This document shows, in pieces, positions 6,959 to 11,138 of a DNA stretch of 33,382 nucleotides (position 1 is the stretch's first letter; every line of letters starts with the position of its first letter). A model generated the notes under the pieces. It was given only the letters and a program-made list of their open reading frames with translations. It made no database searches and was not told the DNA's origin. A program made the position numbers and the translations under genes. Where the stretch lies: NCBI GenBank assembly GCA_020437905.1, contig JAGQVN010000319.1, positions 1-33,382 on the forward strand, written 5' to 3'. Source of the DNA: Flavobacteriales bacterium (GTDB lineage: Bacteria > Bacteroidota > Bacteroidia > Flavobacteriales_F > PHOS-HE28).

Positions 6959-8224
6959 ATGTCCTGTGCCACCTGCAGCAACAACACCGGGGGCGCCCCA
7001 CGCGGATGCAAGAACAACGGCCATTGCGAGTCCGGAGGATGCTCCAAGCTGGAGGTCTTTGACTGGCTTTCCGGGGTCCCGATGCCTGCCGGGTACCAGG
7101 TCTTCGATGGCATCGAGGTCCGCTTCAAGAACACCCGAAAGCAATTCTATCGCTGCCCACCAACGATCCGGGTGCATGGTGGCGACCTGGTCGTGGTGGA
7201 TGCATCACCCGGCCACGATGTGGGGGTGGTGACTTTGACCGGAGAACTGGTGCGGGCCCAAATGGCACGGCGCGGTGCCACCACGGACACCTTTGAGCTT
7301 CGCACTGTGCTGCGCAAAGCGGAGCAGCAGGATATTGACCGGTGGCACGAGGCGCGTGGAAGAGAGGATGAGACCCTCTTCGCAGCTCGGCGCATGGTAC
7401 ACGATGCGGGTCTCGACATGAAGGTCACGGACGTGGAGTATATGGGTGATGGCACCAAAGCCATCTTTTATTACACAGCCGAGGAACGCATTGATTTCCG
7501 TGGATTGGTGCGGCGCTTTTCCGACCGATTCGGGGTGCGGGTGGAGATGAAGCAGATCGGGGCCCGGCAGGAGGCGGGACGGATCGGAGGCATCGGCAGC
7601 TGCGGTCGGGAACTATGCTGCAGCAGTTGGCTCACCGATTTCCGTAGCGTGACCACCAAGGCGGCGCGCTACCAGCAACTTGCGCTGAATCCACAGAAGC
7701 TGGCAGGCCAGTGCGGCAAGCTGAAGTGCTGCCTGAACTACGAGCTGGACATGTACATTGAGGCGATCAAGAGCTATCCCTCGCAGAACGCGAAGCTGAG
7801 GACCCAGCAAGGGACCGGTACGCACATCAAAACGGACATCTTCCAGGAGAAGATGTGGTACATGTTCAAGAAGCCAGGGACCGTCCCTGTCATGGCTGGA
7901 TTCCCCATCGAAAAGGTCCGTGAGATACAGTCCAAGAACAAGGCCGGGGAAGAACCGTTCGTGGACCTGGAAATGGTGGAGGAACCGAGCACCCCATTGA
8001 AGACCCCGGACTATGAGAACGTCGTGGGGCAGGATGACCTGACGCGGTTCGACAAGAAGATGAAAGGCCCATCGCGCAAGCGCGGTGGGAAGAAGCGCAA
8101 GCGTTCCGCGTCCGGGAGCAAGGAAAAGGAACAGGGAGAAGCCCCACGCAAAGAGGGCAAAGAAGGAGGCAGGCGCAAGCGCGGCCGTGGGGGCAGGAAC
8201 AAGCCCAAGCCACCCGCATCGTGA
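6959..8224 (+). CDS. ricT: PSP1/RicT family protein
   Basis: The 421-residue protein belongs to the PSP1 C-terminal domain family; in Bacillus, RicT (YaaT) acts with RicA and RicF as a cysteine-bound iron-sulphur complex affecting RNA maturation. The N-terminus is Cys-rich (CATCSNN, GCKNNGHCESGGCSK). The core shows VEYMGDGTKAIFYYTAEERI, DFRGLVRRFSDRFGVRVEM, KQIGARQEAGRIGGIGSCGR, ELCCSSWL and GQCGKLKCCLNYELD, with the conserved paired cysteines. The last 70 residues are a Lys/Arg/Gly-rich tail that may bind RNA. In Bacteroidota this gene commonly lies next to gldH, as here: its stop overlaps the GTG start of gldH by 4 bases. No RicA or RicF homologue is visible in the window. Confidence 0.88.
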   Translation: MSCATCSNNTGGAPRGCKNNGHCESGGCSKLEVFDWLSGVPMPAGYQVFDGIEVRFKNTRKQFYRCPPTIRVHGGDLVVVDASPGHDVGVVTLTGELVRAQMARRGATTDTFELRTVLRKAEQQDIDRWHEARGREDETLFAARRMVHDAGLDMKVTDVEYMGDGTKAIFYYTAEERIDFRGLVRRFSDRFGVRVEMKQIGARQEAGRIGGIGSCGRELCCSSWLTDFRSVTTKAARYQQLALNPQKLAGQCGKLKCCLNYELDMYIEAIKSYPSQNAKLRTQQGTGTHIKTDIFQEKMWYMFKKPGTVPVMAGFPIEKVREIQSKNKAGEEPFVDLEMVEEPSTPLKTPDYENVVGQDDLTRFDKKMKGPSRKRGGKKRKRSASGSKEKEQGEAPRKEGKEGGRRKRGRGGRNKPKPPAS

Positions 8225-8709
8225 TCACGTTCAACAGAACGACCATTGTATCGCTGGGCCTCATCCTGGGGGGCTGTACCGGTGAGGTTGTATTCGTGGC
8301 CGACCAGGCCATATCGGCATCGGGATGGTCCAGTACCGATCGTCCGGAGTTCTGTTTCGACATCTCCGATACCCTTGTCAGGCATGATGTGTTCATCGAT
8401 GTGCGGCATACGGGTGATTATCCCTTCAGTGATCTGTACGTCTTCGTGGATCTTGATGGCCCTGGCAACCTGCACATCCGTGATACGGTCGAATGCATTC
8501 TTGCCGATGCATCAGGCAATTGGTTCGGAAAAGGGACCGGATTTGTCGTGACCGATGCCTACCGCGCTCACGTGCTCTACAAATTGGGCAATAGGTTCCC
8601 CCGCAAGGGACGTTACTGTATGCGACTGGAGCAGGCCATGCGCACGGATCCATTGCCCGAGATACTGGATGTGGGCATCACCATAGCGCGCTCGGAGCGA
8701 ACGCGATGA
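8221..8709 (+). CDS. gldH: Gliding motility lipoprotein GldH
   Basis: GldH is a lipoprotein required for gliding in Flavobacterium and is part of the conserved gliding/T9SS gene set of Bacteroidota. The 162-residue protein begins with a GTG overlapping the ricT stop. It has a lipoprotein signal with lipobox LGGC (Cys19). Family hallmarks follow: SSTDRPEFCFDISDT, VFIDVRHTGDYPFSDLYVFV, RDTVECILADASGNWFGKG and RLEQAMRTDPLPEILDVGI. It should sit in the periplasm, anchored to a membrane. The stop overlaps the PBP1A start (ATGA). It agrees with the T9SS cargo domain at 1747-3129. Presence of gldH does not prove gliding, since non-gliding Bacteroidota also keep it. Confidence 0.92.
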   Translation: MITFNRTTIVSLGLILGGCTGEVVFVADQAISASGWSSTDRPEFCFDISDTLVRHDVFIDVRHTGDYPFSDLYVFVDLDGPGNLHIRDTVECILADASGNWFGKGTGFVVTDAYRAHVLYKLGNRFPRKGRYCMRLEQAMRTDPLPEILDVGITIARSERTR

Positions 8710-11138
8710 ACGATAAGGGGACCACAGCCTCAGCGAGCCTGAAAGGGCGATGGGTCCGTTGGGCCGTGTTGGGCGCGTGGGTGCTGCTGCTTGGCCCGAT
8801 CCTGGGGCTGGTGTTCATGTTGGTGCTGGCCTCTCAAAGCGATCTTCCCAGTACCGAGGACCTGGAGAACCCGCGAAGCGACCTGGCGACCGCCGTGCTG
8901 TTCAGCGATGGCACCCAAATGGGCCAATACTACCGTGAGAACCGGATCCCGGTGGACTACACGAAGCTCTCTCCACACCTGGTGGATGCGCTTATCGCCA
9001 CGGAGGACGAACGGTTCCGGGAACACAGTGGGGTCGATCTGCGCGGCACGCTGCGCGCTGCGGTCTATATGGGCAGAAAGGGAGGAGCCAGTACCATTAC
9101 GCAACAGTTGGCCAAGATGCTCTTCACCAACAAGCCGGCAAGCTCGGTCAAACGGGTGTTCCAGAAGTTCCAGGAATGGATCATCGCGGCCCGCTTGGAG
9201 CGCCAGTATACCAAGCACGAGATCATCGCCATGTACCTGAACCGGTTCGATTGGATCAATCAGGCGGTCGGCATCCATTCCGCATCGCGGGTCTATTTCA
9301 GCACCACTCCCGATTCACTGCGCATCGAGGAGGCGGCCATGTTGGTGGGCATGTGCAAGAACCCCGCGTTGTTCAACCCACTTCGCCGTCCGGACACGAC
9401 AGAGCATCGTCGTATGGTGGTGCTGGCGCAGATGCTGAAGAACGGCTTGCTCGACCAGCAACAGTACGACTCGCTCAAAAGCCTTCCCCTGGGGCTCCGC
9501 TTCCAACGCGTGGACCACACGGAAGGTCCGGCGCCCTACTTCCGTGAGACCCTGCGGGCTCGCTTGCAGGCCTTGCTGGACGAACGTGATGAGGATGGGC
9601 GACCCCTTCTCGCCAAGGCGGACGGTGAACCGTACGATCTCTACACGGATGGCTTGAAGGTGTATACCACACTGGATCGCCGCATGCAATCGTACGGGGA
9701 ATGGGCCATGCGGGAGCATTTGGCCACTGAACTACAGCCGGACTTCTTCAAGGACCTTGCGCGCAAAAAGAACGACCCGTTCGATCGGTTGGTGTCGCAG
9801 GATGAGATCGAGGGGATCATGAACGCTGCCATGAAGCGAAGCGTCCGGTACCGTGTGCTCAAGGGCAGGCAGTGCCCCAACTGCGAACGCCCTGCGAGCT
9901 ACATCGTGAATGACGTGCATGAGGGTGTGGAACAGTTCCACTGTGACCCCAAGGCCGGCGGCTGCGATACGCATTGGCCCGTGCTGGATGCGAGCGGCAT
10001 CCAAGCGAACTTCAATACACCGACCCCGATGCGGGTGTTCACCTGGCATGGTGAAGTGGATACGTTGTTGAGCCCCATGGATTCGATCCGATACTACAAA
10101 CGCTTTCTTCAGAGCGGCCTGCTGTGCATGGATCCGCGTACTGGATTCGTCAAGGCATGGGTGGGTGGGATCGACTTCAAGCACTTCCAATACGATCACG
10201 TGGACCAGGCACGCAGACAGGTGGGCAGTACGTTCAAGCCTTTCGTTTATGCCACGGCGATTCGAGAAGGCCTGGATCCGTGCATGGAATTTCCCAATCA
10301 AAAGGTATGCTTTGATATGCCTGAGCCGCAACCTCAATGGTGCCCGAAGAACAGCGATGCGGAGTATGGAGGGATGGTTACCATGCGCTACGCCCTGGCC
10401 AATTCGATCAACACCGTGACCGCCTGGCTGATGAAGCAATACAGCCCACAGGCGGTGACCGTCCTGGCCCGCAACATGGGCGTGAAGAGCCCCCTGGAAC
10501 CGGTCCCCTCCTTGTGTCTCGGTGTGGCCGACCTCACGCTTTCAGAGATGACCGCGGCCTTTTCGGCCTTTGTGAACTCCGGCGTGTACATCGAACCCAT
10601 CCTGTTCACCCGGATCGAGGACAAGAACGGCAACGCGATATACGATGTGGTACCCCACACCGTGGAGGCTCTGGATGAGAGGACGTCCTACATCGTGCTG
10701 GACCTGATGAAGGGGGTCGTGGACGGCGCCTATAACAAGGGCACAGGCAAGACCGTGGGTACCGGCATGCGCATCCGGACCAGCTGGGGTAACCGGGCGC
10801 GTTATGCGAACATCAAGTACCCCATGGCCGGTAAGACGGGCACCACACAGAACAACAGCGATGGCTGGTTCATCGGCATGACCCCGGACCTGGTCACCGG
10901 TGTGTGGACCGGGGCGGAGGACCGCAGCGTGCGGTTCAGCACGACCGACAAGGGACAGGGGGCCAACATGGCGCTTCCGATCTATGGCTACTACATGAAC
11001 CGGGTGTATGCGGACAGCACCATCCAGATCTCCAGGGGCGACTTTGAGCGGCCGGCAGGTTTCGACATGACCCTGCTGAACTGCCGCGAGCGGATCGCGA
11101 ACGGGGGTGCCGATAAGCAAGGCCCCAAGTGGGAGTAG
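8706..11138 (+). CDS. Class A penicillin-binding protein 1A with a four-cysteine insert
   Basis: This bifunctional peptidoglycan synthase has 810 residues. A signal anchor spans about residues 18-42. The GT51 glycosyltransferase domain follows, with catalytic Glu100 in [14 protein letters not shown] and the motif [13 protein letters not shown] (128-140). The transpeptidase domain has S508-x-x-K (GSTFKPFVY), S567-I-N and K710-T-G. Between the two domains, residues 381-430 carry a four-cysteine element: Cys390-x2-Cys393-x19-Cys413-x6-Cys420. It is placed between RYRVLKG and [10 protein letters not shown], which in the relatives I recall are joined by a short linker. It resembles a zinc ribbon, although periplasmic cysteines could instead form disulphides. 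The gene is last in the holB-ricT-gldH run, overlapping gldH by 4 bases. Confidence 0.95.

Follow-up and report, generated by a model that had tools for sequence, protein, structure and literature searches.

What is a cysteine-rich, zinc-ribbon-like stretch doing between the two catalytic domains of a Bacteroidota PBP1A, and what holds it together? The question arises from a first-pass annotation of the window, i.e. the whole 33,382-nucleotide stretch of DNA analysed here, which comes from a Flavobacteriales bacterium. The reading we favour, with a probability of roughly 0.6, is that a predicted C4 zinc ribbon in the interdomain turn provides a non-catalytic contact surface that steers PBP1A. 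The protein is of PBP1A type, combining a membrane helix with a GT51 transglycosylase and a transpeptidase domain, as laid out here together with the preceding gene:

8221..8709, + strand: gldH, lipoprotein gene (PF14109, 4.1e-32), overlapping the start of pbp1A by 4 bases
8706..11138, + strand: pbp1A open reading frame, 810 aa, class A penicillin-binding protein (PF00912, 4.3e-53; PF00905, 3.3e-19)
8742..8834, + strand: single N-terminal membrane helix, residues 13-43, from the sequence and the secondary structure of the model
8910..9434, + strand: transglycosylase domain (GT51), residues 69-243, from Pfam
10125..10889, + strand: transpeptidase domain, residues 474-728, from Pfam

The best NCBIfam model for the protein is TIGR02074 (PBP_1a_fam), whose score of 475.6 bits does not reach the cut-off of 508.75, and the transpeptidase motifs SxxK, SxN and KTG can be found by eye as STFK (508-511), SIN (567-569) and KTGTT (710-714). 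Cysteines occur at residues 217, 390, 393, 413, 420, 474, 526, 535, 546, 604 and 793. By the general topology of class A penicillin-binding proteins (PBPs), the part downstream of the membrane helix should be extracytoplasmic. When the protein is aligned with solved PBP1As, residues ~338-461 form a gap between the domains, and it is inside this gap that the insert lies:

9861..9980, + strand: zinc-ribbon-like insert, about residues 386-425, from alignments and an AlphaFold model of mean pLDDT 90.9
9873..9875, + strand: C390, knuckle 1, invariant in the profile alignments A1 and A2
9882..9884, + strand: C393, knuckle 1, invariant in A1 and A2
9888..9890, + strand: R395, two residues past C393, giving C-x-R in all ribbons of A1 and A2
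9942..9944, + strand: C413, knuckle 2, invariant in A1 and A2
9963..9965, + strand: C420, knuckle 2, absent from one aligned relative (L098), which has a His at equal spacing from C413

The pattern C-x2-C-x19-C-x6-C, which the first-pass annotation had read at residues 390, 393, 413 and 420 within positions 9846-9995 (residues 381-430), is exact. Its placement as an insert between RYRVLKG and FNTP was borne out by an alignment check, in which the window protein has ~37 residues more than a ribbonless PBP1A of the same class (L025, RYHALKAQGLSPEEIEKNFNTP). PBP1As of other families of the class read RYxxLKxxGxSxDSIxxxFNTP or similar, with a short turn at this site. The first-pass statement that other Bacteroidota have only a short loop here thus holds for most of them, but not for all, since the insert occurs in 11 families of the class. 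The site also accepts unrelated modules: in the PBP1As of L027 and L030 this turn is occupied by a long helical insert.

Within the genus, a whole-genome search with the window protein yielded 20 full-length PBP1As (the window's included) and a partial one, as well as one from another family, and all of these have the four cysteines. Of the 45 genomes in the order, 41 have the ribbon; the four exceptions (G011, G018, G748 and G757, members of the genus, of which three are 95-97% complete) match neither the ribbon nor gldH, and because the gldH match is missing too, the absence is likely to reflect a missing segment, either a deletion or an assembly gap common to all four. In the wider class, 56 of 395 sampled genomes carry it, always at one place in PBP1A, in families f1, f5, f12, f23, f24, f33, f46, f52, f55, f65 and f75. 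The insert profile A1 and the broader profile A2 returned the identical 56 strong PBP1A matches, which a wide gap (from 2.6e-16 to 7e-4) separates from the next. Nearly all PBP1As of f33 align through the insert in a single alignment; in f5, 21 of 35 do so and the remaining 14 give split matches, broken at about 387/430. The phylum sample gave strong matches in 2 of 395 genomes. A private oddity of one genome or an assembly error is therefore ruled out by the presence of the ribbon throughout the genus and in 11 families, and the counts for class and phylum likewise rule out a general feature of Bacteroidota, which the first-pass annotation had named as something that would refute it. In the organism's own genome, the insert profile matched PBP1A and no ribbon elsewhere.

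The distribution is patchy, requiring several gains or losses. On an unrooted PBP1A tree from which the insert columns had been left out, ribbon presence needs 5-6 changes by parsimony, and a single clade of ribbon-bearing PBP1As is rejected (AU test, p 2e-42), a combination that points to repeated loss or transfer. The consistency of the ribbon sequence argues for one origin followed by losses or transfers, rather than for repeated invention. The ribbon is a real and old module, and its conserved cysteines, together with an insert profile that matches nothing but PBP1A in the own genome, speak against chance.

The predicted fold agrees with the name given to the insert. An AlphaFold2 model of it, built on an alignment of 32 sequences (the window's and those of related loci), was confident (mean pLDDT 90.9, with the five models at 84-91) and shows first a knuckle, then a hairpin (model residues 26-31 and 34-39), the other knuckle and one more short strand (49-51), with a helix on either side (6-11 and 55-62). 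Two cysteine knuckles thus enclose a beta-hairpin, as in a C4 ribbon, with the second knuckle being C-x4-C to C-x6-C, not CxxC. The model of full-length PBP1A was poor (mean pLDDT 70.7, pTM 0.50), with the insert its best stretch (about 90), so that the arrangement of the domains cannot be read from it. No known Pfam domain accounts for the insert, none scoring above the curated cut-off, and the weak Pfam matches are largely zinc-binding: zf_CopZ, Zn_ribbon_IS1595, Zn_ribbon_recom, Zn_ribbon_Top1 and Zn_ribbon_TFIIS. Weak profile matches in the PDB include RPB9 and PhnJ. In a Foldseek search against the PDB all matches had E values of at least 0.17, none being significant singly; the best of them include several assemblies with what we take, partly by our own naming of the subunits, to be zinc-ribbon subunits, such as eIF2beta, RPP21 and ELOF1.

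Would the four cysteines bind zinc or form disulphides? We analysed 129 distinct PBP1As, of which 17 lack the ribbon. The quartet is kept in 110 of the 112 that have it; one exception (L124) has an X, a sequencing ambiguity, at one cysteine position, and the other (L098) lacks C420 and reads VCHGDEEPHIW, which places a His seven residues past C413, at the C-x6 spacing of the ligand. Besides the cysteines, Gly387 and Arg395 are invariant in a diverse set of 30 sequences, and the consensus at the first knuckle is CxNCGRRG. A second pair of cysteines, in the transpeptidase domain, behaves differently:

10308..10310, + strand: C535, partner of C546
10341..10343, + strand: C546, partner of C535

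Both members of this pair occur in 55 of the same 129 proteins, neither in 74 and one without the other in none, and because they are always present or absent together C535-C546 is a probable disulphide, so that pair and quartet offer an internal contrast within one protein. The precedent of that pair, the periplasmic location of the insert region and the fact that Bacteroidota make periplasmic disulphides (PMC12635249) all speak for two metal-free disulphides stapling an extracytoplasmic loop, the alternative that had been put forward alongside zinc. Against it stand the CxxC knuckle at ribbon spacing, the His of L098 (a single sequence), the lack of any insert-bearing sequence that has lost one pair, and our failure to find DsbA, DsbB or VKOR in the organism's own genome (92.5% complete); overall we consider two disulphides improbable. 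A Zn(Cys)4 ribbon is well ahead, if unproven: we infer zinc binding from the conserved cysteines, which are kept together as a quartet, the knuckle spacing, the confident model, the weak matches to zinc domains, the missing disulphide enzymes and the His of L098, and in this form the zinc-ribbon-like character first ascribed to the insert stands. The likely C535-C546 disulphide occurs although none of the three disulphide enzymes was found in the genome, and C526 and C793 are near-invariant together among the 129 proteins.

Like the C4 ribbons of the topoisomerase I C-terminus, TFIIS/RPB9 and the IS1595 transposase, to which it gives weak profile matches, the insert has two cysteine knuckles and a beta-hairpin; unlike the insert, those ribbons are intracellular, being cytoplasmic or nuclear domains, and no significant homology connects them to it. 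Topoisomerase I-like ribbons came up as weak matches in the ribbon profile searches, but homology with them was set aside after a direct profile comparison proved non-significant (probability 22%). The same searches weakly matched the zinc domain of L134, which, reading the name from its sequence, we take to be that of ClpX, a cytoplasmic protein. Its CSFCGRKR...FICENC shows a short resemblance to the CxNCGRRG...C-x4-C of the insert and differs in that its second knuckle is CxxC.

How might such a ribbon act? We propose that it interrupts the turn that joins two short helices (residues ~380-385 and ~429-437), between the catalytic domains and outside the inner membrane, with C390 and C393 forming one knuckle and C413 and C420 the other. 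One Zn(II) would then hold together a small beta-fold that is too short for much of a hydrophobic core, and the folded ribbon, including the invariant Arg395, could present a surface for contact with an envelope partner or of one catalytic domain with the other. This surface would steer PBP1A, as ODD and UB2H do in E. coli, where LpoA docks on ODD of PBP1A and LpoB on UB2H of PBP1B (PMC3060616); a docking role has also been proposed for further lineage-specific inserts of class A PBPs (PMC4632607). Like ODD and UB2H, the ribbon is an extra non-catalytic part between the transglycosylase and transpeptidase domains that only some lineages possess (PMC3060616, PMC4632607). It differs from them in being ~40 residues long, rich in cysteine and ribbon-like, with no sequence relation shown, and the likeness is to be taken as an analogy by position, not descent, since it is based on where the ribbon falls when the protein is aligned with solved PBP1As, in the gap between the domains. 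Because it occupies the interdomain stretch of the LpoA-docking region of E. coli PBP1A, our best guess is that it may be a lineage-specific docking or regulatory module with a presumed partner, for which GldH is a candidate; the docking role suggested in the first-pass annotation is thus plausible from position. More tentatively, PBP1A of many Bacteroidota families might have, in an extracytoplasmic Zn(Cys)4 ribbon, a part dedicated to docking or regulation that is analogous to ODD and UB2H but evolved independently of them.

The ribbonless relatives in f5 evidently manage without the ribbon, which counts against a contact surface. Together with the unrelated helical inserts of L027 and L030, which show that the site tolerates decoration, they are what could be expected if the ribbon, zinc included, were purely a structural spacer, stiffening the interdomain hinge and having no partner. 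We regard this as a serious but unlikely explanation, given that the invariance of Arg395 and Gly387 goes beyond the needs of a bare spacer and that the ribbon is kept in 11 families despite an identity to the window PBP1A of only about 50-60% outside the genus.

Zn-Cys4 sites are oxidisable, and the ribbon might instead be a sensor, in which zinc loss or oxidation of the thiols in the periplasm unfolds the ribbon and so raises or lowers the activity of PBP1A. A redox or zinc switch has been proposed for the zinc site of Acinetobacter baumannii PBP2 (PMC9974482, discussion), but neither a redox partner nor a zinc-regulated neighbour gene was seen, and we consider a sensor, the redox-sensitive role of the first-pass annotation included, improbable. 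The same enzyme is also a precedent for periplasmic zinc in a PBP, as it has a zinc site of physiological weight in its periplasmic part (PMC9974482), demonstrated there and predicted for the ribbon. In that class B protein an Asp2-His-Cys site lies inside the transpeptidase domain, ~10 A from the catalytic serine, whereas the ribbon, in a class A enzyme, would use four cysteines of an insert that stands apart between the domains.

In the open-access literature, where the control of class A PBPs in Bacteroidota is little described, we found no account of such an enzyme with a zinc ribbon. Being conserved, and sitting where an activator docks on proteobacterial PBP1A, the extra domain offers a concrete starting point in the search for a regulator. 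A periplasmic zinc ribbon, if confirmed, would already be an uncommon find, and through it the building of the cell wall would be linked to the supply of zinc, a link that has been shown for another PBP in Acinetobacter; if the ribbon is indeed a docking module, cell-wall synthesis in those Bacteroidota would depend on periplasmic zinc.

As for the locus, Pfam matches 5' of pbp1A are to the DNA polymerase III delta subunit (DNA_pol3_delta2), PSP1 and GldH, and the 3' neighbour is a CoA transferase. A gldH match was found in 98 of 112 ribbon loci and in 5 of 17 ribbonless ones, with locus flanks that differ in length. The same genome also encodes a second PBP1A-like protein, a ribbonless one, in an open frame of 763 aa (G000:C146:8901-10913).
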